A stretch of 64,000 bases of DNA from Thermogymnomonas acidicola JCM 13583 (lineage in GTDB: Archaea > Thermoplasmatota > Thermoplasmata > Thermoplasmatales > Thermoplasmataceae). This document shows, piece after piece, positions 10,149 through 48,819 of this stretch. The notes beneath the pieces are model-generated. The model made no database searches. It saw only the letters and a program-made list of their open reading frames with translations, and was not told the origin of the DNA. The DNA is taken from contig NZ_BBCP01000001.1 of the NCBI RefSeq assembly GCF_001316105.1, forward strand, positions 1 to 64,000, read 5' to 3'. Positions within the stretch are counted from its first letter, which is position 1; every line of letters begins with the position of its first letter. The position numbers and the translations under genes are program-made.

Positions 10149-10235
10149 GTCGGGGGGGTAGCCTAGCCCGGTAAGGCGGTAGACTCGAGATCTACTGCTC
10201 TCTGTAGCTCGGGAGTTCGAATCTCCCCCCCGACG
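10149..10235 (+). tRNA. tRNA-Ser (CGA) with three surplus G residues as written
   Basis: Class II tRNA: D arm AGCCTAGCCCGGTAAGGC, anticodon stem GTAGA/TCTAC around CTCGAGA (anticodon CGA), long variable arm, T loop TTCGAAT, discriminator G. The 3' acceptor strand CCCCGAC pairs with GTCGGGG, leaving exactly four G, but the 5' strand has seven G (10152-10158) before TA of positions 8-9. Three G are therefore unpaired in the acceptor/D junction. As written it could not fold normally. Confidence 0.9.
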
Positions 10236-25091: not shown

Positions 25092-25173
25092 GGGGGGGTT
25101 GTAGCTTAGCATGGTTTGAGCACCCGGCTGATAACCGGGGAGGTCATCGGTTCAAATCCGGTCAACCCCCCCA
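25092..25173 (+). tRNA. tRNA-Ile (GAT) with both acceptor strands lengthened
   Basis: D arm AGCTTAGC...GAGC, anticodon stem around CTGATAA (anticodon GAT), T arm ATCGGTTCAAATCCGGT, discriminator A. The acceptor should be GGGGTTG/CAACCCC, but seven G (25092-25098) and seven C (25166-25172) are written. Both strands are longer by three, so the written gene would have a ten-pair acceptor stem. The extra 3' C residues precede the discriminator, which is incompatible with normal tRNA geometry. Confidence 0.9.
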
Positions 25174-28777: not shown

Positions 28778-29549
28778 TTGAAGTCAAACGTTTACTCGAA
28801 GGATGGCAATGCCGTTGCTGAGATCGAGCTCCCGAGGGTGTTCGAGACCGTGCCGAGGGAGGACATCATAAGGAGGGCCTTCAGGGCTGTGACCCTTTCC
28901 ATGCGCCACCCCCCCTACGGTACATCGCCGACGGCCGGTCTCAGAAGGGTGGGTCATAACTACGGGCCAGGCCACGGGATAGCGAGGCTGCCCAGGGTGG
29001 CAGGCTCCACCAGGGGTGTTATACTCGCAAACATGGTCGGTGGGAGAAGCGCGCATGCACCGACAACGCAGAAGGTGCTCGTCAAGCGCTTCAACAGGAA
29101 GGAACTCCGCATGGCAAAGTTCAGCGCCATAGCGCTTACAGCAGTCCCGGAAAAGGTCAGGGCGAGGGGGGGTCACAGGGTACCAGAAGGGCTTTCCCTG
29201 CCCGTGGTTGTCAAGGACGATGTTGTGGAGGTATCAAAGGCAAAGGATGCGATGAGTGTCCTCTCCAGCCTTGGCCTCGATGAGGATGTTATGAGGGCCA
29301 AGGAGGGAACCAAGATCAGGGCAGGTAGGGGGGGAAAGATGAGGGGGCAGGACGTACAGGGAGCCGAAGAGCATACTGATCGTGTGCACTGACACCAGGA
29401 AGGCGAGGGGGGGGTTCAAGTCACTCCCGGGTGTGGATGTTGCGAACGTCTCCTCACTCGGCATACGCCATCTAGCCCCTGGAGGAGTTGCAGGCAGGCT
29501 CACCCTCTTCACGGAATCAGCAATAAGGAAGCTGTCGGAGGTGGAGTGA
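28778..29549 (+). CDS. rpl4: 50S ribosomal protein uL4, frame-broken
   Basis: Blocks: SKDGNAVAEIELPRVFETVPREDIIRRA, GTSPTAGLRRVGHNYGPGHGIARLPRV, TTQKVLVKRFNRKELRMA, and AGRGKMRG-RTYREPKSILIV near the 3' end. TTG 28778 is chosen because it follows GGTGATTGAT and gives the family start KSNVYS; an in-frame GTG lies at 28769. G5 for G4 near 29342-29347 breaks the frame; the rest (KARGFKSLPGVDVANVSSLGIRHLAPGG) continues to 29549. About 255 residues. Confidence 0.95.
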
Positions 29550-29807
29550 GTGGACACCCAGAGCGTTATACTGACTCCTGTGGCAACCGAAAAGACGATG
29601 CTCATGATGGAGAAGGAGAACAAGCTCACGTTCATAGTCCACAGGGCTGCCAGGAAGGCGGACATAAAGAAGGCCGTGGAGGAGTCCTTCAACGTCAAGG
29701 TAGTGAAGGTCAACGTGGTTATAGGCAAGGAGGGAAAGAAGGCCATTGTGAAGCTGGCGCCTGAGTTCTCGGCGGAGGAGATCGCCGGGAGGATAGGCAT
29801 ATTCTGA
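29550..29807 (+). CDS. rpl23: 50S ribosomal protein uL23
   Basis: About 85 residues: VILTPVATEKTMLMMEKENKLTF, HRAARKADIKKAVEESFNVKVVKVN. Complete and intact; it has no long G/C run. GTG 29550 immediately follows the uL4 stop. Binds 23S rRNA domain III at the exit tunnel and docks SRP. Confidence 0.96.
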   Translation: MDTQSVILTPVATEKTMLMMEKENKLTFIVHRAARKADIKKAVEESFNVKVVKVNVVIGKEGKKAIVKLAPEFSAEEIAGRIGIF

Positions 29808-29816
29808 GGTGAAGGT

Positions 29817-30521
29817 ATGGGTAAGCACATTGTTGCTCAGAGGAGGGGGGGCCGCGGGGGGGGTCTTGTCTACAGGAGTCCGAGCCACAGGCACGTGGCA
29901 CCAATAAGGCACCCTTCCCCCCCCGGAGAGTACACGGTCAAGGACATTATACATGCCCCTGGCAGGAATGCACCCCCCCTGCTGGTGCTGGAGGACGGGA
30001 CTGGAAAGCACCAGTTCCAGATCGCGTTCAACGGTGCATACGTCGGCCAGAAGTTATCTGTAGGCTCAGGCTCACCTGCACCGGGCTGCACGCTACCTCT
30101 TGGCTCAATACCGGATGGGAGCCTCGTCTACAACATTGAGAGCATGCCAGGCGACGGCGGCAAGTTCTGCAGGACCGCCGGTACGGCTGCACTCGTGGTC
30201 AGCCACGGGGAGCGTGTGACACTGAAGTTCCCCTCCGGAAAGATGAGGCAGTTCCACCCGTTGTGCATGGCCACTGTGGGCATAGTATCCGGCAGCGGTG
30301 CGAAGGACATACCCATACTGAAGGCCGGTACACACATACACTACCTGAGGAGCAAGGCCAAGTGGCCGTTCACCGTGCGCGGTGTGGCAATGAACGCGGT
30401 GAACCACCCGCACGGGGGGGGAGGCAACCACCAGCATGTGGGCAGGCCAAGCACGGTTGGAAGGGGGGGAACGCCACCTGGTAGGAAGGTCGGTAGGCTG
30501 TCTCCTAAGAGGAGGAGGTGA
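29817..30521 (+). CDS. rpl2: 50S ribosomal protein uL2
   Basis: Peptidyl-transferase-region protein, about 234 residues, in one frame throughout. [12 protein letters not shown] start, [65 protein letters not shown], ending PPGRKVG. All six long runs (lengths 7 or 8) each add exactly one residue to the expected protein: [40 protein letters not shown]. The invariant HPHGGGNHQH is thus lengthened. Confidence 0.96.
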
Positions 30522-30523
30522 AC

Positions 30524-30980
30524 ATGCCGGTAAAGAAGCAGGCATCTGTAAAGTCGATCAAGAGGAAGGCCAGGAAGTCACAGAAAGTGGTCCTGGGCAG
30601 GGCGAAGGAATTCACATACAGGGGGGGGTACACACTCGAGCAACTCCAGAAAATGGACCTGCAGGAAGTCATGAAGCTCCTGACCGCCAGGGCCAGGAGG
30701 TCCCTGACCAGGGAGATGAACTACGAGCAGAAGGTGCTCTTTGAAAAGCTGAACTCAGATGAGCAGAACATAAAGACCCACGTGAGGGACATGATAATAC
30801 TCCCGAGGTTCGTTGGCAAGATTGTTGAGGTCTACAACGCAACTCATTCGTAAAGTTCGAGATAAAGCCCGAGATGATAGGCCATTACCTGGCGAGTTTG
30901 CCATGACAAGGAAGGAGGTGAAGCACTCCGGCCCAGGCGTTGGTGCTACCAGGTCATCGAAGTTCATGCCGCTGAAGTGA
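30524..30980 (+). CDS. rps19: 30S ribosomal protein uS19, frame-broken
   Basis: Head protein of the small subunit. Archaeal N-terminal extension, then [100 protein letters not shown]. Two single-base losses (GGC to GC near 30838-30841, GGG to GG near 30891-30894) shift the 3' third; repairing both gives a perfect family C-terminus. About 152 residues. Confidence 0.94.
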
Positions 30981-30985
30981 TGCAT

Positions 30986-31436
30986 ATGAAGGGTTACTCT
31001 ATCCAGAATGTGGGTGAGAGGAGCGCCAGGGCAAGGGGGGAAGGAACTGGACATATCCCTCAAGGACTCCGTGAACATAGCACACTTCCTGAGGGGGGAA
31101 GAGGCTCCAGTGGGCCATAGATGCGCTTGAGAAGGTCACCCAGAAGAAGCTGGCTGTGCCTTACTTCAGGTACCTTGACTCCGTGTCACACAGGAAGGGC
31201 ATGTCTTCCGGGCGCTACCCAGTAAAGGCCGCCAGGGCATTCCTAGAGGTGCTCAGGAACGCCGAAGCAAACGCAGAGTTCAAGAGCCTTGACACGGAGA
31301 ACCTCGTGATCCGCCACATAGCAGCCACCAAGGCAGGATGATCAAGAAATACCTGCCGAAGGCCTACGGCAGGGCCGGCGCATGGTTCAAGGACCTCGTC
31401 AATGTGGAGGTAGTCGTTGAGGAGGTGGAGTCATGA
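30986..31436 (+). CDS. rpl22: 50S ribosomal protein uL22, frame-broken
   Basis: Lines the exit tunnel. [107 protein letters not shown]. Breaks at G6 near 31034-31041, G6 near 31092-31097 and a lost A near 31336-31340. About 150 residues. The stop overlaps the uS3 ATG (TCATGA). Confidence 0.93.
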
Positions 31437-32086
31437 AGGAGAGGAAGTTCGTGAAGGAGGCCGTGAACAAGCTCCTCGTGGCCGAGTTCATCAGGAAGGC
31501 AACCGACAACGCTGGCTTCGGCGGCATAGAGATGAAGAGGACCCCCCCCTTCGGCACGAACATAACCCTCTACGTTAACAAGCCCGGCCTGGTCATAGGC
31601 AGGCACGGTGCCAAGGTGCAGGAGATCACGGACGAGCTGGAGAGGAGGTTCAAGGTGGAATCTCCGCAGATAGAGGTCAAGGAAATACCGAACCCCCGAC
31701 CTGAACCCCCAGGTTGTCTCGAAGAAGATCGCACTGTCCCTTGAGAAGGGCTGGAACTACAGGAAGGCAGGGAACACGTCTCTAAGGAGGGTCATTGAGG
31801 CAGGCTCCAAGGGCGTCATGATCAGGATAGGGGGGGCAAGATATCCGGCGAAAGGGCCAGGGCACAGAAGTTCATGTACGGGTCGATAAAGTACTCCGGC
31901 GAACCCGGCAGGAGCGGCATGGAGACGGGCTTCTCCATAGCAAAGCTCAAGCAAGGCGTGATCGGCGTCACGGTCCGCATGCTGAAGAACGATTACAAGC
32001 TGCCCGATGTGATAAGCGTCGGGGGGGAGCTCCCAAAGCAGGAAGTAAAGGAGGTAGTGTCACAAGATGGAGCTAAGGGCGAGTAG
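31433..32086 (+). CDS. rps3: 30S ribosomal protein uS3, frame-broken
   Basis: KH-domain protein at the mRNA entry. [20 protein letters not shown], the KH core [76 protein letters not shown]. Breaks near 31690-31712 and at the G6 run 31831-31836. About 218 residues; C-terminal tail short and acidic. Confidence 0.94.
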
Positions 32087-32267
32087 GATTAGGGAGATGA
32101 GCAGGCAGGAGAGGGAGGAGACCCTGAAGAACCTCAGGGAATCCCTGCTCAGGGAGAGGGCAAGCCATGCCATGGGAGGTGCACCCTCCAACCCGGGCAA
32201 GATAAAGTCCATAAAGAGGCAGATAGCCAGGGTCCTGACAGTGATGACGGAGGAAAACAAAGAATGA
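32067..32267 (+). CDS. rpl29: 50S ribosomal protein uL29
   Basis: About 66 residues: [26 protein letters not shown] and the C-terminal [16 protein letters not shown]. Intact. It starts 20 nt inside uS3, and its stop overlaps the aIF1 ATG (GAATGA). Confidence 0.94.
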
Positions 32268-32566
32268 AGGACAAGAATTTCACGGGCATCCCGAAGGAGT
32301 TGCAGCCCTGGGAGGGCTTCAGCAGGGACACCCAGACTGTGAAGATAAGCGTGGACAAGAGGAGGTACGGCAAGAGCGTCACGATCATAGAGGGCATAGA
32401 CCCAAAGGCGGAGAACATACAGGAGATTGCGAAGACGCTGAAGAAGAAAGTGGCCTCTGGGGGGGGCACCGTTAAGGACGGGAGGATAATAGAGCTCCAG
32501 GGTGATCACAGGGAAACCGTGAAAAAGCATCTGGAGGAGATGGGCTTCAGGACTGAGGTCGTATGA
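32264..32566 (+). CDS. Translation initiation factor aIF1 (SUI1)
   Basis: About 100 residues, SUI1 fold with KISVDKRRYGKSVTIIEGID, EIAKTLKKKVASGGTVKDGRIIELQGDHR. Start-codon fidelity factor binding near the P site. The G7 run at 32460-32466 gives ASGGGTV for the family's SGGTV, in frame. The gene sits between uL29 and Rnp1, the usual archaeal order. Confidence 0.95.
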   Translation: MKDKNFTGIPKELQPWEGFSRDTQTVKISVDKRRYGKSVTIIEGIDPKAENIQEIAKTLKKKVASGGGTVKDGRIIELQGDHRETVKKHLEEMGFRTEVV

Positions 32567-32871
32567 GGAACCTTAGGGACTACCTTGATGACCTGATTGG
32601 CTACCACTGTGAGGTCGTGAGGTCCAGCAACAGTGCCCTGGTGGGCATAGGCGGAAAAATAGTGGACGAGACCAGGAACATGGTCTATATAGGGTCTGGC
32701 AGGAGGGTCAGGGCAGTCCCAAAGGGCGTGGTAACACTCAAGATCTCAAAGCCAGGCAGGGAAGTCTACCTGAAAGGGCCCTTGCTCTGTTACAGGCCTG
32801 AGGATAGGCTCAAGGAATCAAGGAGGATTGAGAGGAACCTGAGAAGGGGGGGTGGTGTTAATGGCAACTAG
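32563..32871 (+). CDS. rnp1: RNase P protein component 1 (Rpp29/POP4)
   Basis: Sm-like beta-barrel protein of archaeal RNase P, about 100 residues: LIGYHCEVVRSSNSALVGIGGKIVDETRNMVYI, VRAVPKGVVTLKI, LCYRPEDRLKES. ATG 32563 overlaps the aIF1 stop. The C-terminus runs into uS17 through a 7-G run at 32846-32852, so the last residues are uncertain. Confidence 0.93.
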   Translation: MRNLRDYLDDLIGYHCEVVRSSNSALVGIGGKIVDETRNMVYIGSGRRVRAVPKGVVTLKISKPGREVYLKGPLLCYRPEDRLKESRRIERNLRRGGGVNGN

Positions 32872-33193
32872 GAACATCGGTATAGATGTGAAACCGCCAG
32901 CCACTGAGTGCAAGGACAAAAAGTGTCCTTTCCACGGCAGCCTGGTCGTGAGGGGGGGCCAGGTGATGACTGGCGTCGTCAAGTCTGCATCCATGATAAG
33001 GAGTGCAGTAGTGACCAGGGAGTACAAGAAGTACATAAAGAAGTACGAGAGGAGGACCAGCGTCCTGAAGAAATACCATGTGCATGTGCCCGGATGCATA
33101 TCCGTCAAGCCGGGCGACGTGGTCAAGATCGCTGAGTGCAGGAAGCTGGCCAAGACCATATCATATGTTGTGGTGGAGAAGGTGACCACATGA
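32861..33193 (+). CDS. rps17: 30S ribosomal protein uS17
   Basis: About 110 residues, archaeal type: [85 protein letters not shown]. In frame; one G7 run (32952-32958) adds a Gly. ATG 32861 lies within the end of rnp1. Confidence 0.95.
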
Positions 33194-33595
33194 AGGGAGT
33201 AGCGGGCAGACAGCACAGGGGGGGACTACCGCTCGGCGCAACCATGATATGCGCGGACAACAGCGGTGCCAAGATGATCAGCCTCATAGACGTCAAGGCG
33301 TACCACGCGTTGCCAGGCGCATACCGGCCGCTGGCGTAGGCGATATGTTCGTTGCGAGCGTGAAGAAGGGTACGCCTGAGATGAGGAGCAAGGTGGTCTA
33401 CGCCGTCGTGATAAGGCAGCGCAGGCCGTACAGGCGCCTGATGGCACGATGGTCGAGTTCGAGGAGAACGCAGCGGTGCTTGTAACGCCTGACGGAGAGG
33501 TGAGGGGGGGATCCGAGATAAAGGGGGGGCCCGTGGCCAGGGAGGCGGCCGAGAGGTGGCCAAGGATAGCGGCAATTGCCTCCACAATAGTATAG
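33190..33595 (+). CDS. rpl14: 50S ribosomal protein uL14, frame-broken
   Basis: Subunit-interface protein. [24 protein letters not shown], then after a slip [41 protein letters not shown], then after a second slip [43 protein letters not shown]. Breaks near 33318-33322 and 33438-33443 (single-base changes in short runs), with in-frame surplus Gly at the G7 runs. About 132 residues. ATG overlaps the uS17 stop. Confidence 0.94.
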
Positions 33596-33604
33596 GGTGA
33601 TATC

Positions 33605-34096
33605 ATGATCAAGAGGCTGAATGTGCACCTCTCAAGGGACCTCCAGAAGAAGTTCGGCATACGCACCTTTCCCATAGTCTCCGGCGACGTGGTCAGGATT
33701 GTCAAGGGATCGAGGAAGGGAGAAGGCGGAAAGGTCGTTGAAGTCGACCACGTCGCGGGAAGGGTCTCGGTGGAGGGAATAACCATAGCGAAGGCGGACG
33801 GCAAGCAGAAGCCATTCTTCCTGAGGCCGGAGGAACTGGTCATCACAAGGCTCGACCTCTCCAGGCAGGAGCGGCAGGACAGGCTCAGGCAGCTGGCCGC
33901 ACTCAGGAACGTCACGGTGTCTGAAGAGGTCATAAAGGAAGAACAGCAGGCGGCTGTGGCAGAGGAGAAGAAGGAGGTCAGCGAGCAGCCGGCGCAGGCA
34001 GTGGAGGGCACAACCACGGATGAGGCCGGATCAGTGGCCGCATCTGGTTCAGAGGATGAAGTGAAGGAGGCCGAGGGAAATGATAACGAAAACTAA
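33605..34096 (+). CDS. rpl24: 50S ribosomal protein uL24 with long acidic tail
   Basis: KOW-domain protein that starts 50S assembly: FPIVSGDVVRIVKGSRKGEGGKVVEVDHVAGRVSVEGIT. The family core ends near residue 105; here about 55 further residues are low-complexity and acidic (EEQQAAVAEEKKEVSEQ, then repeated Glu/Ala/Ser/Thr up to EAEGNDNEN). 163 residues in one intact frame, against about 120 usually. The tail's 3' end overlaps the eS4 start by 17 nt. Confidence 0.95.
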   Translation: MIKRLNVHLSRDLQKKFGIRTFPIVSGDVVRIVKGSRKGEGGKVVEVDHVAGRVSVEGITIAKADGKQKPFFLRPEELVITRLDLSRQERQDRLRQLAALRNVTVSEEVIKEEQQAAVAEEKKEVSEQPAQAVEGTTTDEAGSVAASGSEDEVKEAEGNDNEN

Positions 34097-34809
34097 GAGG
34101 CTTGTCCTTCCCAGGACAATCAAGATCGCGAGAAAGACCCACTTCTGGGGGGGAGCGAGTGCATCCCCCCGGCAAGCATGACAGGGAGCACTCAATACCC
34201 CCTCCTGATCCTGTTAAGGGACTACCTCCACCTTGGCGACAAGGAGAGGGAGATAGCCAGGATGCTTGCCAACAGGCAGGTTGCCGTGGATGGCAAGGTA
34301 GTCAGGGAGAAGCGCTTCGGTGTAGGCTTCATGGATGTGGTCTCAATACTACCGACAGGGGGGGAACACTTCAGGATAACCTACGATACCCTGGGAAGGC
34401 TCGTCCCTGTGAGGATCGAAGAGGGGGGGAGGCACAGATAAAGCCCCTCAGGATAAAGGGAAAGAGGAGCATAGACAACAGCCGCTTCCAGATAACCTTC
34501 CATGACGGGAGGAACATGATCACACAGGACAAGGACCTGAGGCCCGGTGACGTAGTGATATTTGACCTGAAGTCTAGGTCGGTTGTGGAGAAGCTGAAGT
34601 TCCAGCCTGGGAACAGGGCCTTCCTAACAGGCGGCTCGCACGTGGGGGGGGAAATCGGCACGATCAAGAAGATCGAGGTCAAGGAGTCATCGCACGCCAA
34701 CCTGGTGCACTTTGAGGAGGGCTTCAGCACCGTTCAGGACTATGCGTTCGTCATATCGTCACCGAAGTACTCATTCAACATCAAGGTACAGGGAGGTGCG
34801 CAGTCTTGA
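34080..34809 (+). CDS. rps4e: 30S ribosomal protein eS4, frame-broken
   Basis: Start LVLPRTIKIARKTHFWG matches the family. S4-type RNA-binding stretch YLHLGDKEREIARMLANRQVAVDGKVV, then MDVVSILPTGGEHFRITYDTLGRL, KPLRIKGKRSIDNSRFQITFHDGRNM, and the KOW part LTGGSHVGGEIGTIKKIEVKESS. Breaks at the G7 run near 34148-34154, at 34195-34201 and at the G7 run near 34425-34431. About 238 residues. ATG 34080 overlaps uL24. Confidence 0.94.
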
Positions 34810-35323
34810 GCAATCCGATGCAGGAAATTGTCATAGACAAGGTCGTGGTCAACATAGGCGTTGGCCAGGCGGGCGACAGGCTTAACAAGGCGGCCAGGGT
34901 CGTGGAGATGTTGACTAACAGGAAGCCGGTGTTCACGACCGCGAAGAGGACCGTCAGGGACTTCAACGTGAGGAAGGGCCTGCAGATAGGAGTCAAGGTT
35001 ACCCTCAGGAAGAATGATGCTGTGGAGTTCCTCAAAAAGGCGCTCTACGCAAAAGGATATAAGATCCCGCACTACTCCTTCGACAGGCAGGGAAATGCCT
35101 ACTTCGGCATAGCGGACTACACGGACTTCAAGGGCATGAAGTACGATCCGGAGATCGGCATATTCGGCATGGACATAGCCGTGGTGCTCAAGAGGAGGGG
35201 GGGCGGGTACAGGCTGGAGAGGAGGAGGGTAAACAGGAAGCACCTGCCTCTAAGATCAGGGTCACCAGGGAGGAGAGCATGGAGTTCCTTGAAAAGAATT
35301 TCAACGTGCAGGTGGTGAGGTAA
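34806..35323 (+). CDS. rpl5: 50S ribosomal protein uL5, frame-broken at the 3' end
   Basis: 5S rRNA binding protein: [100 protein letters not shown] 34806 gives MSNP; ATG 34818 is an alternative. A single-base slip near 35243-35247 separates the last 28 residues ([23 protein letters not shown]). About 172 residues. Confidence 0.94.
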
Positions 35324-35485
35324 TGGCACAGGTCAAGCTGCAGCCCAAGAAGAAATTTGGCCACAAAGAGGGTTGCCTGAGGTGCGGGAGGAAGAGAGGG
35401 ATAGTGAGGAGGTACGGCCTGCACCTCTGCAGGCAGTGCTTCAGGGAGACGGCCCCCCCAGCTTGGCTTCAGGAAGTACAGTTAA
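35323..35485 (+). CDS. rps14: 30S ribosomal protein uS14 (zinc-binding type)
   Basis: Short zinc-ribbon form of about 53 residues: [31 protein letters not shown] with CxxC...CxxC. A C7 run at 35453-35459, one longer than the six the frame needs, shifts the last ten residues (PQLGFRKYS). ATG overlaps the uL5 stop (TAATG). Confidence 0.93.
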
Positions 35486-35494
35486 GGTGATGTT

Positions 35495-35887
35495 ATGAGA
35501 CATGACCCGCTCAATGATATAATAAACAGCATCAAGAACGCTTCCAGGATAGGGAGGAAGGAGATCGTAGCTGAACCTGCAGGCAGGCTCATAGGCAGGG
35601 TCCTGAAGGTCATGCAGGAGTACAACTACCTGAAGAGCTTCGAGGTCATAGACGAGGCCAGGGGGGGAGGGAAGTTCAGGATCGTGCTCAGCGACACCAT
35701 TAACAACTGTGGTGTGATCAAGCCAAGGCTCCCTGTCAAGATATCAAACATGGACAGGTACGAGGCCAGGTACCTCCCCGCCCAGGACTTCGGAATCCTG
35801 ATACTCACAACAACAAAGGGCGTGATGAGCCACATAGAGGCCAGGAAGCTGGGAATAGGCGGTAAGCTGCTTGCCTACGTCTACTGA
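35495..35887 (+). CDS. rps8: 30S ribosomal protein uS8
   Basis: About 130 residues: DPLNDIINSIKNASRIGRKEI, LIGRVLKVMQEYNYLKSFEVID, KFRIVLSDTINNCGVIKPRLPV, GILILTTTKGVMSHIEARKLGIGGKLLAYVY. In frame. EARGGGKFRI carries a surplus Gly from a G7 run. Confidence 0.96.
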   Translation: MRHDPLNDIINSIKNASRIGRKEIVAEPAGRLIGRVLKVMQEYNYLKSFEVIDEARGGGKFRIVLSDTINNCGVIKPRLPVKISNMDRYEARYLPAQDFGILILTTTKGVMSHIEARKLGIGGKLLAYVY

Positions 35888-35897
35888 GGTGGCGCGC

Positions 35898-36452
35898 ATG
35901 GAGATAAAGTGGAAGGAAATGTTCTCATTAAGCCCTCCGCAGGGCGTCACGTTCACGGTGAGCGACCACACGGTGGAGGTGAAGGGTAAGCTGGGCACGG
36001 TTGTCCGTGTCTTCAAGGACAACTATGTCCGCGTGGTGCCTGACGGGAACTCCATAAAGATAATGGTGAGCAAGGAGAACCGCAGGAACAGGGGGGGGAT
36101 AGCGGGCACCTGGTACTCCGAGATCAGGAACGCCTTCAGGGGGGGAGTGACAGAGGGGGGGTTCAGGTACGAGATGAAGATCGATTACACGCACTTTCCC
36201 ATGAGGGTCTCTGTCAGGGGGGGCAACAGGGTAGTGATTGAGAACTTCCTGGGGGGGGAGAGGTCACCCAGGTATGCAGACATAGTGGGCAACACAAAGG
36301 TGAGCGTCAAGGGTGATAGGGTTACGCTTGAGGGCATAGACAGGCGCCAGCTAGGCGAGACCGCCGCAAACATAGAGAGGGCCACGAAGATAAAGGGCTT
36401 CGACCTCAGGGTCTTCCAGGACGGCGTCTACCTGATTTCAAAGGGTGAGTGA
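35898..36452 (+). CDS. rpl6: 50S ribosomal protein uL6
   Basis: Two-fold repeat RNA-binding protein, about 184 residues, one frame. Five long G runs (four of 7, one of 8) each insert one Gly: [22 protein letters not shown] (two), [12 protein letters not shown] and [10 protein letters not shown], where archaeal uL6 has [21 protein letters not shown]. Otherwise a textbook archaeal uL6 ending [20 protein letters not shown] 35898 follows GAGGTGGCG. Confidence 0.96.
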
Positions 36453-36453
36453 G

Positions 36454-36870
36454 ATGAACACTCTGAAACCTTCGCTGTCGGAATACGAGAAGAGGTTACT
36501 GAAGATCAAGGTCGAGCAGGCAAGGAAGCGTCCAGCCTTCAGGAGGCAGGAGTGGTTCAGGTACAAGAAGCTCGGGGGGGATGCATGGAGGAAGCCCAGG
36601 GGGGGAAAACACTCCAAGATGCGTGAGCACCTTGCCAGGAGGCCTCCTGTAGTCGATTCGGGTTTCAGGTCTCCAAGAATCGTGAGGGGGGGCCTGCACC
36701 CGTCCGGCTTCAGGGAGGTGCTGGTGAACAACGTTTCTGAGCTGGAGAGGCTGGACAGGAACAGGGAGGCGGCCAGGATTGCCTCCAAGGTGGGGGCCAA
36801 GAAGAGGGAGGCGATCCTGAAGAGGGCAGATGAACTTGGCATCAGGGTCATCAACAGGGGGAGTGAGTGA
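36454..36870 (+). CDS. rpl32e: 50S ribosomal protein eL32
   Basis: About 138 residues. Core [32 protein letters not shown], then [54 protein letters not shown]. In frame with surplus Gly at LGGDAW, PRGGKHS and VRGGLHP. ATG 36454 is two bases after the uL6 stop; an in-frame GTG at 36445 is possible. Confidence 0.95.
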
Positions 36871-36872
36871 GC

Positions 36873-37334
36873 ATGAAGATGGAAACAGCGAAGAGGCTGG
36901 CTGCAGAGGAGTTCAAGTCCGGCGTCTCCAGAGTCTGGATCGACACGAACAGCACCGAGGAGGTGCTCGAGGCCGCATCGAGGGAGGACATAAGGCAGCT
37001 CATAGAGAGGAACGTCATACAGCTCAAGCAGAAGAAGGGCAACTCCAAGGGGGGGAGGTTCAAGAAGAGACTCAAGCAGCTTTCCAAGGGCCGCAGGCGC
37101 GGGGAAGGTTCCATAAGGGGGGGTACCAAGTATGCTAGGTTCCCGAGAAAGGAGCGCTGGATCAAGACGATCAGGCCACTCAGGGAGGAGCTCAGGAACC
37201 TCCGGGACAGAGGTAGCATAGACAGGAAGACTTACAGGCGCTTTTACAGGATCATAAAGGGGGGGCTCGATAAAGTCCAGGGCCAGCTGGTGGCCCAGAT
37301 AAAGTCGCAGGGCCTCCTAAAGGGCGGTGAATGA
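36873..37334 (+). CDS. rpl19e: 50S ribosomal protein eL19
   Basis: About 153 residues: METAKRLAAEEFKSGVSRVWIDTN, EEVLEAASREDIRQLIERNVIQ, then the basic GRRRGEGSIRG-TKYARFPRKERWI and RPLREELRNLRDRGSIDRKTYRRFYRIIKGG. One frame, surplus Gly at SKGGRF and SIRGGTK. Either GTG 36867 or ATG 36873 starts it. Confidence 0.95.
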   Translation: MKMETAKRLAAEEFKSGVSRVWIDTNSTEEVLEAASREDIRQLIERNVIQLKQKKGNSKGGRFKKRLKQLSKGRRRGEGSIRGGTKYARFPRKERWIKTIRPLREELRNLRDRGSIDRKTYRRFYRIIKGGLDKVQGQLVAQIKSQGLLKGGE

Positions 37335-37335
37335 T

Positions 37336-37838
37336 ATGCACGTTAGAGTGTTCAAGAGGAAGAGGGAGGGCATTACCGACTACAGGAAGAGGCTTGCCCT
37401 CGTCAAGTCAGGCCTACCGAGGCTCGTGGTGAGGCCTTCGGGAAAGGGGGGGATACAGGCCCAGATAGTGAAGTTCAGCCCGAGGGGGGGTGACATAGTG
37501 GTCGCCACGGTCAACGAGAGGAGCCTCAGGAAGAGGGGGGGCTCCAGGTTGATGGCAACAGCACCCCCCGTCTGCTACCTGGTGGGCTACATGCTGGGAA
37601 AGCTTGCGCTTTCCAGGGAGGTGGAGGAGGCTGTCCTTGACATAGGCCGCAGGAAACTGACACGGGGGGCGGAAGGATAACGGCTGTCCTCAAGGGTGCC
37701 GTCGATGCTGGCCTTTACGTTCCGCACGACGAGAGCATCCTCCCCTCGGAAGACAGGATAAAGGGAAAGCACCTGAAGGACAGCAAGAGGTTCAGCGGTA
37801 TCGATGAGATGAAGAGGGCCCTGGAGGTGGTTCAGTGA
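37336..37838 (+). CDS. rpl18: 50S ribosomal protein uL18, frame-broken
   Basis: 5S rRNA binding protein. [33 protein letters not shown], then [33 protein letters not shown], then after a slip in CACGGGGGGCGG (37662-37673) [31 protein letters not shown]. About 168 residues after repair. The stop CAGTGA overlaps the uS5 GTG. Confidence 0.94.
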
Positions 37839-38504
37839 CTGATGAAGACTGGGTCCCAAAGACGCAGCTCGGGAAGCTGGTGGCCGAGGGCAAGATAAAG
37901 ACGATGTCAGAGGCCATCAGGTCAAGGCTGCCACTGAAGGAGTACCAGATAGTTGACATCCTCTTACCAAACCTGATGGATGAGGCAATATACATAGAGA
38001 GGGCACAGAGGATGACAGACTCCGGAAGGAGGATGAACTACTCTGTGACCGCGGTGGTTGGCAACGGCGATGGCTTTGTCGGTGTGGGAAGGGGGCAAGG
38101 CCAAGGAGGCTGCACCTGCCATAAGGAAGGCAGTGAACAACGCGAAGCTCAACATACTGGAGATCAGGAGAGGCTGTGGCTCCTGGGAGTGCGGCTGTGG
38201 CAGGGCCCACACGCTGCCGTTCCTGGTCGTCGGGAAGTCGGGCTCCGTTGAAGTGGTGCTCAAGCCTGCGCCACAGGGCCTGGGCAGGGCAGTCGGAGAT
38301 GTGGCCAAGATCATACTCAGGATGGCAGGCATCGAGGACGCCTGGGGCTTCGCCAAGGGCCACACGAAGACCACTGTGAACTACGCTCTGGCCACATTTG
38401 ATGCCCTGAGGCAGACCTCCATAATGAAGATAAACCCTGCGCTCAAACTGTCAACGCCAATATATGCGGGGAGTGTTGCTAATGCTGGCAGTGTTAAGAG
38501 TTAG
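37835..38504 (+). CDS. rps5: 30S ribosomal protein uS5, frame-broken
   Basis: Decoding-fidelity protein. [66 protein letters not shown], the archaeal insert [19 protein letters not shown], then [29 protein letters not shown]5 for G4 at 38091-38095 causes the only break. About 222 residues. Starts with GTG overlapping uL18. Confidence 0.95.
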
Positions 38505-38980
38505 GGGGAAGGACCGGCATCAGGCCGGACGCGGAGAAGACCGCGGCACTCATGAGGTTGCACAGGATCAACCACCTGGTCCTGGTGCCCGAGGACGATG
38601 TGCACAGGGGCATGCTGCAGGTGGTGAAGGATTACGTCACGTGGGGTGAGATAGACCGGGAGACACTGGTCATGCTTCTCAAGTACAGGGCACAGCTGAA
38701 GGGCCACAGGCCTCTCGACAGGGAGGCACTGTCATCCCTCGGCTACTCCTCTTACGAGGAACTGGCGGACGCAATACTGGCCGGAAAGAAGCTCACAGAC
38801 CTGGAGCACTGGTGCCGGTGTTCAGGCTGAACCCGCCTGTGAAGGGCTACGAGTACATAAGGAAGCCCGTGACACAGGGGGGGGCACACTGGCTACAGGG
38901 GGGGTAAGGCCATAAACCAGCTGATCAAGAGGATGCTGATCTCAGGGGGGGTTGATCTCAATGGTAAGGGAGAAAACTAA
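38482..38980 (+). CDS. rpl30: 50S ribosomal protein uL30, frame-broken
   Basis: [35 protein letters not shown] needs one G removed near 38511-38513. [44 protein letters not shown], then after another slip near 38812-38818 [22 protein letters not shown]. The 3' end is uncertain because G7 runs at 38877-38885, 38899-38905 and 38945-38951 precede it; the TAA at 38978-38980 keeps the frame and overlaps uL15. Confidence 0.88.
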
Positions 38981-39422
38981 GAAGCTGAGGGGGGGCGGTC
39001 ACTACGGCCGTGGCTGGAAGGCAGGAAGGGGGGGCAAGGGAAAGCGTGGAGGCTCAGGGAACGCAGGAATGGGGGGGAAGCACAGGTGGATATGGATGCT
39101 CAAGTACGACAGGCTCCACCTGGGCGGAAAGGGGGGGTTCGTGAGCCACCACAGGAAGGCGCCAGAGAACCCGATAAACATATCGAAGCTCAACCAGCTG
39201 CTGCAGCAGCTCGAGAGGGATGGCTACGCGACCAGGGATGGGGGGGATGCTGTGACAGTTGACCTCAGGGCCGCTGGCTACACCAGGCTCCTCGGGGGGG
39301 CCGGTGTGCCTGAGTTCAGGGGGGGCCACATAAAAGTGGCCAGGGCGACGCAAAAAGCAATAAATAAGCTTTCCAATCATGGTGTCACGGTTGAAGTAGA
39401 TGGCGGAGATTCAGAGGAATAG
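38961..39422 (+). CDS. rpl15: 50S ribosomal protein uL15
   Basis: About 153 residues: [39 protein letters not shown], then HHRKAPENPINISKLNQLLQQLE and ATQKAINKLSNHGVTVEVDG. One frame, with about eight long G runs each adding a Gly (KLRGGGH, GMGGKHR, HLGGKGGF, LLGGAG, FRGGHI). Overlaps the secY start by 23 nt. Confidence 0.95.
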   Translation: MVREKTKKLRGGGHYGRGWKAGRGGKGKRGGSGNAGMGGKHRWIWMLKYDRLHLGGKGGFVSHHRKAPENPINISKLNQLLQQLERDGYATRDGGDAVTVDLRAAGYTRLLGGAGVPEFRGGHIKVARATQKAINKLSNHGVTVEVDGGDSEE

Positions 39423-41176
39423 AGCGGCCGCTATCCCGGTCGTAATTTTCTACGCACTGGTAATCGTCGGCTTCTGGTACTTCGGGCACTACGGGGCAGC
39501 GAAGCTGGTGGTCGCGGCGGTCCTCACCTCACCCGTATTTTACCTCATTTACCTGGTGGCCAGCTACAAGGGCCCGAAGAAGAGCAGGCTCTACGGGCTT
39601 GAGAACCTCACGTCCAAGCTCCCGGCCATCAAGAAGCCCAAGGGGCACGTCCAGTTCAAGTACAAGCTGATGTGGACTGCCCTTGTGGTGATCCTCTACT
39701 TTGCTCTCACAAACGTCTACGTCTACGGCCTGAACAGGACCGATACAATCGACGTATTCGCTGCGTTCAGGGCAATATTTGCAGGCGCATCTGGCTCGCT
39801 CATGGACCTCGGTATCGGCCCCATAGTCACTGCGAGCATAGTGATGCAGCTCTTCGCAGGCGCGAAGATATTCAACCTTGACCTACAGGACACATCAGAC
39901 AGGGCCATTTACCAGGGCGTCCAGAAGCTCATGGTAATAATAATGATATTTGTGGAGGCCATACCGCAGGCATTCGGGTACCTTGTACCGGACGCATCCC
40001 TCGTTTCCAGGCTGAACGCCCTTGCGCCAGGATTCGGGCACTTCCTTGCGGAGACAGTGATAGTCCTCCAGCTATTCTTCGGCTCATACCTCGTCTTCCT
40101 GATGGATGAGGTCGTTTCGAAGTACGGGATAGGCTCTGGAATATCTCTCTTCATCGCAGCAGGTGTCTCACAGCAGCTCATTACGGGCACGTTCAACTGG
40201 CTCCCCACAACCCCGACATCGCCGCTCTCCCTCTCGAACCCGCCTGCGGGCGCACTGCCGAAGATGTTCTACATCCTCACGCACTCGTCCGCATCATACC
40301 TTAGCAACACAGGGATGCTTTCAATACTCTTCCAGCAGCCAAACCCGATGATAGCCCTCATTGGAACGCTCTTCATATTCTTCCTCGTTGCCTACTTCCA
40401 GAGCAGCAAGATTGAGCTGCCTATAGCACACGAGAGGGTGAGGGGGGGTGCCAGGGGGGGCAGGTACCCGCTCCAGCTGCTCTACGCATCCAACATACCT
40501 GTTATCCTGGCAACTGCACTCCTGGCCAATGTATCCATGTGGACACTCCTCTTCTGGTCCAGCCCAGTCCTGAGCAAGGTGCCCATCCTGGGCCATGACA
40601 GGTACCTGGGGGGGGCTTACCCGACCGCTTCCCAGATCTCGCAGTACGGCATATCCAGCACCACCCTGTGGGCGGGCTGGCGTACTACCTCGCTGCACCC
40701 AATGGCCTGTCTGACTGGCTGTTTCCGATACTGCAGCCCTCAACGGGACAGTCAGTCCTGCTCGGGCACACGCCCTGGGAGGAGGCTATACACGTCATTG
40801 TGTTCGTCCTCTTCATGGTGGGGGGGCCAGCGTGCTCTTTGCCAAGTTCTGGATCGAGACTACGAACATGGGCCCGTCTGCTGTGGCCAGGCAGATAATG
40901 TCCTCAGGCATGCAGATACCCGGGTTCAGGAGGGACCCGAAGGTGATGGAGAGGGTGCTCCAGAAGTACATCCCTGCAATCACCGTCTTCAGCGGCGCTG
41001 TGGTGGGCCTTCTGGCTGCAGGGGGGGCAAACCTCATAGGCACAGTGGGGGGGGACACCAGCGGTACGGGTCTCCTGCTCGCTGTTGGCATAGTGATCCA
41101 GTTCTACGAGGCAATGGGCAGGGAACAGCTCATGGAGATGCACCCTGTGATAAGGCAGTTCTTCGTCGGTGGTTAA
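39400..41176 (+). CDS. secY: Preprotein translocase channel subunit SecY, frame-broken
   Basis: Ten-span protein-conducting channel. Plug and TM2 region (MDLGIGPIVTASIVMQLFAGAKIF), TM5-6 (SKYGIGSGISLFIAAGVS), the cytoplasmic loop [30 protein letters not shown], the late helices (VGG-ASVLFAKFWIETTNMGPSAVARQI) and the C-terminal VGIVIQFYEAMGREQLMEMHP. Breaks: one G lost near 40670-40672 (LWGGLAYYLAAP) and a 7-G run at 40820-40826. The two G7 runs at 40442-40448 and 40454-40460 add Gly to the invariant RGARGRYP. About 590 residues. Confidence 0.95.
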
Positions 41177-41721
41177 ATGCGCGTTGTCATTGCAGGTGTT
41201 GCTGGAGTTGGCAAGTCTACAGTCCTGGAGATAGTGGCGAAGAGGTCGAAGTACGAGATCGTGAACTTTGGCACCCTCATGTTTGAGATGGCAAAGGACA
41301 TAGGACTTGTGAGCAACAGGGACGAGATCAGGAAACTCCCCGTGGACACGCAGATAAACCTGCAGAAAAAGGCCTCATCTGCGATAGGCAGGATGGATGA
41401 TGTGATAGTCGATACCCACATGTCCATAAAGTCCAAGAACGGCTACCTCCCGGGCCTTCCAGAGTGGGTGCTCAGGGAGCTCAAGATCGCTTCATACTTC
41501 CTGATCGAGGCAGACCCTGTGCTGATAAAGAGAAGGAGGGAGATGGACCCACACGCTCGAGGGATGACGACACCGTGGAGGAGATACGGACGCACCAGGA
41601 AGTCAACAGGTACTTCGCAGTGGCCTATTCCATATACACAGGAGCGACAGTTAACTTCATAGAGAACCCAGAGGGAAAACCTAACATAGCTGCTGAAAAT
41701 ATATTATCGAAGCTGGTGTGA
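41177..41721 (+). CDS. adkA: Archaeal adenylate kinase, frame-broken
   Basis: AMP + ATP to 2 ADP; the trimeric archaeal type. P-loop VVIAGVAGVGKSTVLEIV, NFGTLMFEMAKD, KKASSAIGRMDDVIVDTHMSIKSKNGYLPGLPEWVLREL, then TRSRDDDTVEEIRTHQEVNRYFAVAYSIYTGATVNFIEN. One C lost near 41548-41551 (CCCC to CCC) shifts the frame in the lid region. About 181 residues. Follows secY directly. Confidence 0.95.
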
Positions 41722-41723
41722 CC

Positions 41724-42428
41724 ATGGCAGAGCAGAACACTCAGGTGAGTCAGCAGCAGGCTCAGCAGGAAGCGATGAGGAAGATGCTGAGCTTCCAGAT
41801 GATATATATGATGGTGAGCCTGGTCATGCTGTTCATCGTTGCATCCCCCCCATCACTCAGGACATACATAGGGATGGGGATGAACAGGGTCTTCGTTCCC
41901 CCCCTCCTCGGCTTCAATTACATGTACCCTCTCATATCCCTCATATTCACAGGCCTGATACTCGGCATAATAACTTCCGTGCCCAGGTACTTCTTCACCG
42001 ACTGGGTCAAGATGGGCCAGATCCAGGAGAGGTCCAGGGCACTGTCAAAGGCAATCACAGAGGCGTACAGGAACAACCAGAGGGACAGGCTTCAGAAGCT
42101 CCAGAAGATAAGGATGGACATGGCTCTGGACCAGCAGGTCATATCCATGAACACGCTCAAGCCCTTCATGGTCCTGACAGTCTTCACCTTCCTGATATTC
42201 GCATGGCTCTACGTCTTCGTGGGTGAGATACCTTACAGGGTCGTGGCTTTCCCATGGGACTTCAACGTGAACATACAGCTAGCCCACGCTTGGATCTTCC
42301 CGTACTGGATAATCATGTATGCCCTGGTGAGCCTCGTTGTCGGGTACTTCATAACAATGGTCATGAAACTGGTTGACTTCACGTACAAGATAAGGGAACT
42401 GGAGAAGAAGACGCAGACAGTGGACTGA
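41724..42428 (+). CDS. DUF106/EMC3-like membrane insertase (Oxa1 superfamily)
   Basis: Membrane protein of about 234 residues. A Gln-rich N-terminus, a first span (MIYMMVSLVMLFIVA), a second (LISLIFTGLILGIITSV), the cytoplasmic coiled helix hairpin (TDWVKMGQIQERSRALSKAITEAYRNNQRDRLQKLQKIR) and two C-terminal spans. This is the archaeal DUF106 arrangement, related to EMC3/TMCO1 and YidC, thought to insert membrane proteins. Location right after secY-adk is typical. Intact frame. Confidence 0.9.
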   Translation: MAEQNTQVSQQQAQQEAMRKMLSFQMIYMMVSLVMLFIVASPPSLRTYIGMGMNRVFVPPLLGFNYMYPLISLIFTGLILGIITSVPRYFFTDWVKMGQIQERSRALSKAITEAYRNNQRDRLQKLQKIRMDMALDQQVISMNTLKPFMVLTVFTFLIFAWLYVFVGEIPYRVVAFPWDFNVNIQLAHAWIFPYWIIMYALVSLVVGYFITMVMKLVDFTYKIRELEKKTQTVD

Positions 42429-42968
42429 ATGAGGATCGCCATCAGTGGTGGAATCGGGAGCGGAAAGTCCACAGTGGCAAGGCTACTGGCGGAGAGGACT
42501 GGTTACGAGTACGTATCAGGCGGCGTCTTCTTCAGGCAGAAGGCGAGGGAGCTGGGAATGACAATAGAGGAGTTCAACGAATACGCCGAGTCCCATCCTG
42601 AGATCGACATGGAGCTGGACAGCGACCTCCTGTCCTTCCTGAGAAGGAGCGACGATTTCGTGATAGAGAGCCGCCTTGTGGGCTGGCTCTGTTACCGGAA
42701 CGGCATAGATGCGCTCAAGATATTCCTGGAGGCGAGCCGGGAGACGAGGGCCAGGAGGCTGGCCTCCAGGGAGAGGCAGAGCTACCAGGAGGCCTTCAGC
42801 GACCTCGTGAGGAGAGAGGAGAGCGAGCTGAGGAGGTACAGGCACCTGTACGGCATAGACTACATGGACAGCTCCTTCTATGACCTTGTGATAGATACGG
42901 AGAATCTCTCTCCGGAGGAAGTTGTGAATGAGGTCTTCTCAAGGCTCAGCAAGGGCTACCGGTGCTGA
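42429..42968 (+). CDS. cmk: Cytidylate kinase
   Basis: About 179 residues: P-loop [99 protein letters not shown]. Intact. Starts at the codon after the DUF106 stop (GAATGA overlap) and overlaps Cbf5. Confidence 0.95.
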
Positions 42969-43839
42969 ACTGAACGGCTTCATAGTGATAGATAAGCCGA
43001 AGGGCCCCCCCACGAGCCACCAGGTGGACTACTGGATCAGGACTATAACCGGCACGGAGCGTGTTGGGCACGTCGGCACGCTGGACCCTCAGGTAACCGG
43101 GGTACTTGTTGTGGCCCTGGGGGGATGCAACGAAGCTCATAGAGGTCGCGCACGAGCAGAGCAAGGAGTACGTATGCGTGATGCTGTTGCACAGGGATGT
43201 GCCCACTGAGAGGCTCCAGCAGGTGTTCCAGGAATTCACAGGCGACATATACCAGCTGCCGCCGGTGAAGTCCGCTGTCTCCAGGAGCATCAGGGTGAGG
43301 CGCATCCACTCCCTGAGCCTGGTCGAGAGGGATGGAAGGTACGTGATGTTCAGGGTTGTCTGCGAGTCCGGGACATACATCAGGACGCTGTGCGTGGACA
43401 TGGGCTACGCCCTAGGCACGGGGGGGCGCAGATGGTAGAGTTGAGGAGGGTCAGGACCGGCCCGTTCACAGAAAAGGAGGCGGTGACACTGCAGCAGGTC
43501 AGCGACGCCTTCGCCCTCCTGAAGGCCGGCGATGCCAGGCTGGTCAAATCCGTGGTAAAGCCCATGGTCTCCCTGTTCTCCGACGTACCGAAAGTGGTTG
43601 TTAAGAAGAGTGCTGTGGAGAACATCGCCCACGGTTCGGACCTTTACGCTGGCGGGATTAAGCACATAATCGGCCATCCCGGGCCAGGGGGGGACAGGGT
43701 ATGCGTGATCACGGACGATAACCAGGTGGTCGGCACGGGCAAGATGCTCGTGCCACACGACAGCATGGACTCCCTGAAGGTCGTGGATTTCGACCGGGTG
43801 CTTGTGAAGCCCAGGGAGCGCCGGGAGGAAGAAGCCTGA
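42928..43839 (+). CDS. truB: tRNA/rRNA pseudouridine synthase Cbf5 (TruB family), frame-broken
   Basis: Catalytic subunit of H/ACA RNPs. [20 protein letters not shown], catalytic [59 protein letters not shown], then a C-terminal PUA domain ([21 protein letters not shown]...). ATG 42928 is the only in-frame start close enough before NGFIVIDKP and overlaps cmk by 41 nt. Breaks near 43121-43127 and 43420-43427 (G runs). About 300 residues. Nop10, its partner, is encoded at 47881. Confidence 0.92.
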
Positions 43840-44701
43840 TGTCAGGAAGGAGCGTAAGGTGGTACGGGGTCAGGCGAGGAGAGGCCACTGAATTCTTCAG
43901 GGATTTAGACAGGGATTTCATAGGGGGGGTCTTTGACAGCCTCAGGTCAGGGTCGGTGCCAGAGACCGGTGGGACGAGGCCGGGAATAGACCTCAGGCAG
44001 GCGATGATAGAATATGCTAAAAAGAGGCTCAGGGAGGAGTTCACAGAGGACCAGGTACTCATAAGGGGGGGTTACCTGCTGAAGAAGGAATTGGACACAG
44101 CCCTGAACAGCCTGGTCTCCAGGGTATCTTACATTGAGGAGGCGGAGGGCAAGGAGTACTCCTCCGGGGGGGACATCTGCTCCTACCTGAGGGCCCTGAG
44201 GCCTGGATCGATTGATGAGAGTGTGATATCTGGCATAAGGTCTCTGTGCGATGCCAGGGAGACCCTCCTCTCAGACCTGGAGGGCAAGGCACTCAAAGTC
44301 GCACCGAACACCCTGCGGCTGGTGGGACTGGAGGCAACCCTGGAGCTGCTTTACAGGACAGGTGGCCTGAGGCGCCTGGCATCATTGCCAGCAAGCAGGA
44401 TCCAGTTAGTGGGGGGGCCGAGAGAGCGCTGTTCAGGCACCTCACCTCTGGGTCGCCACCGCCCAAGCACGGCTGCATATTCAAGGCCCCACTGATCTCC
44501 TCTCTAAGGGCAGAGGACAGGGGGGGCCGGGCTGCGAGGGTGCTTGCCTGCAAGATAGCCATAGCCTCAAGGGCCGACCTGCTGGGAAGGGACCTGGGGG
44601 GGGAAGAGGCTATAGCTAGGTTCGTTGCTGATGTGAAGAGGGCAGGGTTCAAAAGTTCTCGAGTTCGCTCTGGGCGGCATGCCTCTCGCCGGGTATCGTG
44701 A
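43839..44701 (+). CDS. nop5: C/D box RNP protein Nop5 (Nop56/58), frame-broken
   Basis: Scaffold of the box C/D 2'-O-methylation RNP. N-terminal fibrillarin-binding part (about residues 1-120), coiled-coil region, then the Nop domain [61 protein letters not shown]. Break at the G7 run 44411-44417. About 280 residues. The reading frame as written ends at 44701, inside the 3' end of convergent purF; no fibrillarin gene follows, although the pair is often adjacent. Confidence 0.9.
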
Positions 44702-46104
44702 CAGGGTACTTACCTGTCAGGCACCCCAGGCACAGGGATTCTGCGGGGGGGAAGCCTATTGCATCCACGAGGCCCTCTATTGACACGTATCCAAGCGAAT
44801 CTGCACCGATCTCCTTCCTTATCTCCTCGGTTGTCCTTCCAGCCGCAATGAACTGGTCCTTTGTCTTCATATCTACGCCGAAGTAGCAGGGCGCGATTAT
44901 CTCTGGAGAACCTATCCTGACGTGTATCTCCCTGGCCCCGGCCCTGCGCAGTATATCGACGATATGCTTCATCGTGTTGCCCCTGACTATGCTGTCGTCC
45001 ACGAGCACTACCCTCTTGTCCTTCACCGTCGACTTTATTGCATTCAGCTTGACCTTGACAGCGTTCCGCCTCTGTTCCTGCGTGGGCATTATGAACGTCC
45101 TCTCCGAGAACCTATTCTTTATCAGGCCCTCGTTGTATGGAATCCCAGATTCCATGGAGTAACCCAGTGCCTGAGACCTGCCGGAGTCTGGTACCGGTAT
45201 GACCAGATCCGCATCTACGGGGGTGCTCCCTGGCGAGCCTGCGTCCGAGTTCGATCCTTGTATCGAAGACCTCCCTCCCGTCTATGATGCTGTCAGGCCT
45301 CGCGAAGTAGACATACTCGAACATGCAGTGAGATATGCTCTTGCTTGCCTGAACGAAGAGTGTATGCAGGCCGTCCTCCCTTATCTCAACGACTTCGCCC
45401 GGCATGACGTCCCTGAGGAGCTCACCACCTAGGACATCGATAGCGCAGGATTCGGAGGCCACCAGGTACCCATCTGGCAGCCTTCCTATGACAAGGGGCC
45501 TGAAGCCGTGAGGGTCCCTGATGGCGAAAAGCCTGTCGTTTATCAGGAGGGTTGCTGAGTATGCCCCCCCCTTGAGCCTGTTCATGGCCTGCTTTATCCC
45601 GTTGACGATCCCGAACTCGTTTACGTCTCGGGATATCTCCATTAACATGACTTCAGTGTCGGACGTGGTCTGGAAGGTTGCACCCCCCTCCTCTTCATGC
45701 TCTCCTTCAGCTGCTCTGCGTTCGTTATCTCGCCGTTGTGGGATATCGCTATGTAACCCACGGAGCTCGAGACCACAAATGGCCCCCGCATTCTCAACCG
45801 TCTTCCTGCCGGCGGTGGAGTACCTGGTGTGCCCTATTCCTACCCTTGAGCCGTCCAGGAAAGAGAAGTCCGAGTACTTTGGGTTGAAGACCTCCGATAC
45901 CAGGCCCATGCCCTTGTGAACCTGTACAGACCCTGACTTGAAAACTGCAATGCCAGCGCTCTCCTGGCCACGGTGCTGCAGGGTCTTGAGGGAGGTCAGG
46001 AGGCTATCGAGTGCTTCCCCACCGCCCTTGTAACCTACGACAGCACAGTATTCACTTGGCTTTTGCCCATCTGTATGATCTGATCCTAGGGGCAGGGAAT
46101 CCAC
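44649..46104 (-). CDS. purF: Amidophosphoribosyltransferase, frame-broken
   Basis: First step of purine synthesis. Ntn nucleophile Cys in [10 protein letters not shown], followed by [62 protein letters not shown]; PRTase motif [20 protein letters not shown], and Fe-S type Cys near the C-terminus ([13 protein letters not shown]). If ATG 46104 is used the Cys is residue 20, an unusually long propeptide, and the start lies inside eL37. Breaks near 45681-45687 and 45215-45225. About 480 residues. Confidence 0.92.
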
Positions 46105-46216
46105 AGTGGGAGCACCTCTTCTTCCTCACGTGGTAGGTGTGATGCCCACACCTGCGACATGTCACGTGCACCTTCCTATTGTTCATCTTGCCCAGAGCGG
46201 CAGTTCCATTGCTCAT
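46052..46216 (-). CDS. rpl37e: 50S ribosomal protein eL37
   Basis: Zinc-ribbon protein of 54 residues: [48 protein letters not shown]. Four Cys in CxxC pairs. Too short for many gene finders. ATG 46216 is two nt from the LSm stop, so LSm-eL37 (and probably purF) are one unit. Confidence 0.95.
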   Translation of the reverse strand: MSNGTAALGKMNNRKVHVTCRRCGHHTYHVRKKRCSHCGFPAPRIRSYRWAKAK

Positions 46217-46218
46217 CT

Positions 46219-46470
46219 TCAATCACCCTTTGATGGTGAGACAAAGATCACGTTATCCCCTCTCACCAGCACCCTCTCATAAACTCCCTTGTTCTCTCCG
46301 CCTATAATCTCACCGGCATTCCTGATCACTAGGTTCATGTAGATGTCGTATCCTTCCAGTATGCCAGAGTACCCCCCCCTGTTTCCCTTAACGTCCACCA
46401 GGACGTTCTTGTCTATGGAGTTCCTCAGAACATCCATGGGCTTCACTATGTTTCCGGTGTTCTTCGCCAT
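46219..46470 (-). CDS. Sm-like (LSm) RNA-binding protein
   Basis: About 83 residues with Sm1 (VLVDVKGNRGGYSGILEGYDIYMNLVI) and Sm2 (YERVLVRGDNVIFVSP). Forms heptameric rings on oligo-U RNA. ATG 46470 fits a TATA element about 27 nt upstream. GNRGGYSG has a surplus Gly from a C7 run (46374-46380). LSm beside eL37 is a widespread archaeal pair. Confidence 0.95.
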   Translation of the reverse strand: MAKNTGNIVKPMDVLRNSIDKNVLVDVKGNRGGYSGILEGYDIYMNLVIRNAGEIIGGENKGVYERVLVRGDNVIFVSPSKGD

Positions 46471-46496
46471 GAACTTCACGTGGTAATACCGGTTCC

Positions 46497-46505
46497 GTAT
46501 ATAAT
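46497..46505 (-). promoter_or_regulatory. TATA box of LSm-eL37
   Basis: Minus strand AATTATATACGG, 27-35 nt before the LSm ATG; the transcript should begin almost at the start codon. Confidence 0.6.
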
Positions 46506-46573
46506 TATGTTGAATTCGCAGGCTTACAGGTAACAGAGAAGGCCTGGCCCCCCCTGAAAGGAGACTCCGAAAA

Positions 46574-46581
46574 CTTATATT
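46574..46581 (+). promoter_or_regulatory. TATA box of the eL42 operon
   Basis: GAAAACTTATATTGAG sits about 60 nt before the eL42 ATG and 75 nt from the divergent LSm element; this short region controls both directions. Confidence 0.55.
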
Positions 46582-46638
46582 GAGAGCAGACATAACCCTG
46601 AGGCACACTCAAGATCAGGAGATGTGGTCTGTTTGAAA

Positions 46639-46918
46639 ATGCCAAAGAGCATCAAGATGTACTGTCCTTACTGCAAGAAGCACACGATGCACGAGGTGGA
46701 AAGGGTAAGGAAAAAGAAGGCAAGTGAATTTAAGGCAGGACAGAGGAGGTTCAGGAGGGTCACCTCAGGTTACGGAGGTTTCCCCCAGGCCAAGGTTCGA
46801 GGGCAGGGAAAAGCCAACCAAGAGGCTGTCCCTGAGGTTCAGGTGTGAGGAGTGCGGTAAGGCCATAACCAGGCCCACACAGAGGGCAAAGAAGTTCGAG
46901 CTGCTGGAGGCGCAGTAA
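46639..46918 (+). CDS. rpl44e: 50S ribosomal protein eL42 (L44e), frame-broken
   Basis: E-site zinc protein, about 92 residues: [72 protein letters not shown]. The frame is broken by GG for G near 46795-46797 (not a long run). ATG 46639; an in-frame TTG/GTG lies upstream. Confidence 0.94.
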
Positions 46919-48813: not shown

Positions 48814-48819
48814 GGCAGG

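Follow-up and report, generated by a model that had tools for sequence, protein, structure and literature searches.

The tRNA-Ser(CGA) gene of Thermogymnomonas acidicola JCM 13583 that lies in the window (the whole stretch of 64,000 nucleotides analysed here) is written with three more Gs on the 5′ side of its acceptor stem than the opposite strand can pair, which raises the question of whether these Gs belong to the tRNA at all. We consider it very nearly certain that they are a sequence-data artefact, produced by a systematic error in the length of G/C runs; the surplus bases are almost certainly absent from the DNA of the organism and do not represent a biological feature. The error is genome-wide, strand-symmetric and independent of coding, is absent from the relatives, and affects positions of rRNA and tRNA where inserts should not be tolerated.

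Both ARAGORN and Rfam detect a tRNA at this locus, its type being assigned by ARAGORN. The gene starts with GTCGGGGGGGTAGCC, that is, GTC, GGGGGGG, TA and GCC, and its 3′ portion, written as GGGAG TTCGAAT CTCCC CCCCGAC G, ends in CTCCCCCCCGACG. Because the C7 run on the 3′ side consists of three T-stem Cs followed by four acceptor Cs, the 5′ strand can pair just four Gs. Apart from the surplus Gs, the gene has the 7-bp acceptor, CGA anticodon, long variable arm and close orthologs of a canonical tRNA-Ser(CGA). However, where a canonical tRNA joins the acceptor to the D stem by only two bases (positions 8 and 9), this gene is written with GGG plus TA; the same interval in the relatives is TA alone. 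A covariance-model search of the gene as given, proposed in the first-pass annotation, bore out the anomaly: the Rfam score is 43.8 bits, and the fit requires the 5′ end to be shifted to 10152, with two broken (non-standard) acceptor pairs as a result. ARAGORN calls a tRNA with any number of Gs from 3 to 7, its favoured ends moving as the run changes, and thus does not discriminate between run lengths.

Orthologs in other genera of the same family (Thermoplasmatales) read GTCGGGG-TAGCC or GCCGGGG-TAGCC, i.e. G4, in the alignment rows that have the orientation of the query, to which this reading was limited, with opposite-strand rows left out; on their 3′ side the same rows mostly show the same C7. 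Since the relatives have G4 and the window has G7, the surplus is exactly three, and the first-pass annotation had both its position and its count right. Any three of the seven Gs may be the surplus ones. The best two orthologs (loci L136 and L137) are 98% identical to the gene, and the tRNA genes of relatives at matched positions score 52.8–59 bits with Rfam, the exception being locus L145 with 38.4. Compared with a canonical archaeal tRNA-Ser(CGA), the arms, the anticodon, the long variable arm and the discriminator G agree with those of the family relatives, but the 5′ acceptor run has its three surplus Gs and the variable arm (window 10196–10209) exceeds that of several orthologs by one base. 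The longer arm may be natural, as its length also varies among the relatives. No other genome of this genus is represented in the set of relatives used here.

Table 1. Features of the window discussed in the text, with positions counted from its first nucleotide.
Feature	Position	Strand	Basis or comparison
tRNA-Ser(CGA) gene	10149..10235	+	ARAGORN, Rfam RF00005; orthologs in other genera, up to 98% identity
tRNA-Ser(CGA) ends: 5′ acceptor GTCGGGG, discriminator G; anticodon CGA	10149..10235	+	
G7 run of tRNA-Ser(CGA), G4 in the relatives read, three surplus	10152..10158	+	Ortholog comparison
C7 run of tRNA-Ser(CGA), genuine length, same as in relatives	10225..10231	+	Ortholog comparison
G7 run, 5′ end of tRNA-Ile(GAT); same +3 artefact	25092..25098	+	G4 in relative
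C7 run, 3′ end of tRNA-Ile(GAT); same +3 artefact	25166..25172	+	C4, then discriminator A, in relative
Protein genes conserved in relatives; most of the G/C runs compared here with relatives' proteins	29012..50678	+	
C8 run, T arm/acceptor of tRNA-Lys(TTT); +1 only	58524..58531	+	C7 in relative

The anomaly extends far beyond this gene. The window contains 125 G/C runs of length 4, 54 of length 5, 24 of length 6, 224 of length 7 and 50 of length 8, with none of 9 or more, and the 224 runs of length 7 compare with about 19 expected from dinucleotide composition; counts of A/T runs match expectation. A further 20 stretches from 16 contigs of the assembly (376 kb) gave 637, 273, 125, 1266 and 259 G/C runs of lengths 4 to 8, respectively, and three of at least 9. 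These three, with lengths of 9, 10 and 11 (loci L169, L170 and L185), are exceptions to an otherwise sharp ceiling. In each of the 20 stretches, length-7 runs make up 0.60 to 0.77 of the runs of lengths 4 and 7 taken together. A spike at 7 is present in every sampled locus and contig of the assembly and in none of the 54 loci of independently sequenced relatives, which in 1.0 Mb contain nine runs of length 7 and none longer. By extrapolation, about 7,000 runs in the 1.74 Mb genome would be 7 or 8 long, the majority of them in excess of their true length, with roughly 20 kb of spurious sequence in all. Local damage to one contig and a binning mix were rejected, given the similar ratio in every stretch across the 16 contigs.

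Ribosomal RNA genes show what the run lengths should have been. When the 16S and 23S genes of the assembly were each aligned to 11 relatives, true G/C runs of 3 were written as 3 in all 58 cases, whereas true runs of 4 were written as 4 nine times, as 5 once, as 6 once and as 7 ten times. Likewise, true runs of 5 appear as 7 (once) or 8 (twice) and true runs of 6 as 7 (once) or 8 (once), while 62 of the 63 A/T runs of 3–5 are unchanged. Two of these lengthenings fall in conserved 16S motifs whose segments are kept in the relatives: GTAGGGGTAAAATCC has three Gs inserted, giving G7 in this genome, and CCGTAGGGGAACCTGCGG has two, giving G6. The G7 form of the former was found in this genome only among the 390 searched in the phylum; the other 389 without the signature are counted as genomes searched, not as genomes that hold the segment. 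A G7 run is also present in the 5S rRNA gene (54864–54987, run at window 54955–54961), where it is probably the same artefact.

Other tRNA genes, compared with a single-contig relative, are affected similarly. In addition to both ends of tRNA-Ile(GAT) (Table 1), the same type of insert is found in tRNA-Gln(CTG), in tRNA-Thr(TGT), in tRNA-Gly(CCC), where it lies in the anticodon stem, and in tRNA-Arg(CCT), where it lies in the T stem; tRNA-Thr(CGT), like tRNA-Lys(TTT), has gained a single base. A tRNA with inserts in its stems could hardly be expected to function. Strongly constrained sites are hit in the rRNA core, in tRNA stems and in conserved reading frames. A real tRNA variant with an expanded acceptor junction was rejected because the change is not restricted to tRNAs and recurs in 16S, 23S, other tRNAs and protein genes. 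The tRNA-Ser(CGA) gene itself had been regarded as the cleanest evidence for the phenomenon, but stronger cases are provided by the T-stem insert of tRNA-Arg(CCT) and by those in the conserved motifs of 16S.

The protein genes of the window were compared with proteins of relatives by frameshift-aware alignment. Runs written as 4 agree with the relatives in 35 of 35 cases, runs written as 3 in 492 of 500 and A/T runs in 213 of 217. Runs written as 5 are one base longer than in the relatives in 10 of 14 cases, and those written as 6 exceed them by one base in five cases and by two in another two; an excess of three is seen in 48 of the 64 runs written as 7 and in 15 of the 17 written as 8. Expressed by true length, runs of 4 were written as 4 (35), 5 (10), 6 (2) or 7 (48) and runs of 5 as 5 (4), 6 (5), 7 (5) or 8 (15). 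Of the runs lengthened by one to three bases, 71% gained three, in protein genes (63 of 89) as in rRNA (12 of 17), which leaves no role for reading-frame selection. The earlier view that +3 reflects the way in which runs were written, and not protein selection, therefore holds, with the qualification that +3 is the commonest change and not a rule, since +1 and +2 occur as well. Lengthening is also confined to G/C runs of at least 4, with an output that almost never exceeds 8.

The +1 and +2 lengthenings in protein genes disrupt reading frames. Of the 82 frameshift intervals listed, among which an event may recur through several alignments, 55 include a G/C run of at least 5. The ORFs in the window are short and the completeness of the assembly is 50.5%, probably because of such frameshifts. 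Compared with many of the relatives, single bases also appear to have been deleted at about window positions 30842, 30886, 31327, 33304, 33435, 35226, 40660 and 41540; these sites have no G/C run of at least 4, and the deletions, which frameshift conserved genes, form a second class of error in this assembly.

The error acts on G/C runs of at least 4 and leaves runs of 3 and A/T runs correct. About half of the true 4-base runs are turned into 7 and about half of the true 5-base runs into 8, with at most three bases added and a ceiling near 8, beyond which runs are almost never written. In the explanation that we favour, the source would be a long-read consensus step, most likely in nanopore sequencing, and run lengths may have been decoded separately for each nucleotide by a miscalibrated model. 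The restriction to G and C, the strand symmetry, the near-insensitivity to neighbouring bases, the maximum of +3 and the stop near eight all fit such decoding. The organism's own tRNA-Ser(CGA) would then have an ordinary GTCGGGG/CCCCGAC acceptor stem.

Homopolymer errors in nanopore-only assemblies are mostly shortenings or one-base changes; unlike these, the runs in this genome are lengthened, mostly by exactly three, in G and C only and up to a ceiling of 8. The likeness lies elsewhere: frame-shifting homopolymer indels are a known residual error of nanopore data and, as here, are homopolymer-centred, systematic, gene-fragmenting and visible against homologs (PMC8011154). Among the papers on nanopore homopolymer errors that were found, none describes this exact +3 pattern.

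A narrower form of this explanation, in which the miscalibrated, nucleotide-specific decoding model was of the kind found in MarginPolish, HELEN or Shasta, is possible and may well be wrong; assignment of the artefact to any particular tool is a guess. Decoding of this type accounts for the action on G and C only, the sparing of runs of 3 or fewer, the strand symmetry and the ceiling near 8, and the additional −1 deletions outside runs are compatible with a nanopore-only consensus. According to the passages of the Shasta paper that deal with these programs, the Bayesian repeat-count model of Shasta, also used by MarginPolish, is trained on one basecaller and appears sensitive to calibration errors (PMC7483855). 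However, those same passages give no +3 over-call at 4-base G/C runs; the link is one that we infer, and other polishers (e.g. the homopolymer mode of nanopolish) or the basecaller could be responsible instead.

We think it very improbable that the trigger is biological, namely that modified DNA, or an unusual structure, in G/C runs of at least 4 in this archaeon changes the sequencing signal and makes a standard decoder over-call exactly these runs. A methylation-like motif was looked for at the affected runs and no recognition motif was seen; the flanks of 4-base runs that were kept and of 7-base runs barely differ, expansion being slightly commoner after A. A single-strand effect was rejected because G and C runs behave alike.

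We give almost no credence to the reading of the longer runs as real, through a genome-wide expansion of G/C runs in this lineage, for instance by slippage or a mutator polymerase, for which the sole support is the consistency of the deposited sequence over all sampled contigs. Inserts in tRNA stems and in 16S motifs that are conserved, the +1 and +2 frameshifts in conserved protein genes, the unexpanded A/T runs and unaffected runs of 3, the sharp ceiling at 8 and the lack of any trace in the relatives all speak against such an expansion. Equally negligible is the chance that this copy of tRNA-Ser(CGA) has decayed into a pseudogene and gained a local insertion: its Rfam score does lie below that of most relatives, but other damage is slight, identity to orthologs outside the G run reaches 98%, a DNA search of this genome returned no second close copy, and the same type of insert occurs in many other genes. 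A frame-aware polishing step that retained only multiples of three would explain why runs in protein genes most often gain three bases, but is scarcely conceivable given the equal share in rRNA, the inserts in tRNAs and the +1 and +2 errors that persist in genes.

Recognition of the systematic run-length error removes a false lead on odd tRNA anatomy and provides a simple, checkable signature of corrupted public genomes, in which the length distribution of G/C runs dips at 5–6 and peaks sharply at 7. Neither extra residues and frameshifts nor the low completeness score obtained from this genome should be taken as biology. The 628-aa ORF at window 39400–41286, which we take to resemble heme-copper oxidase subunit I, is a composite in which residues 1–428 are in frame with the relatives and the remainder matches them only in another frame; it has a −1 near 40660 and, at 40820, a run that is two bases too long.
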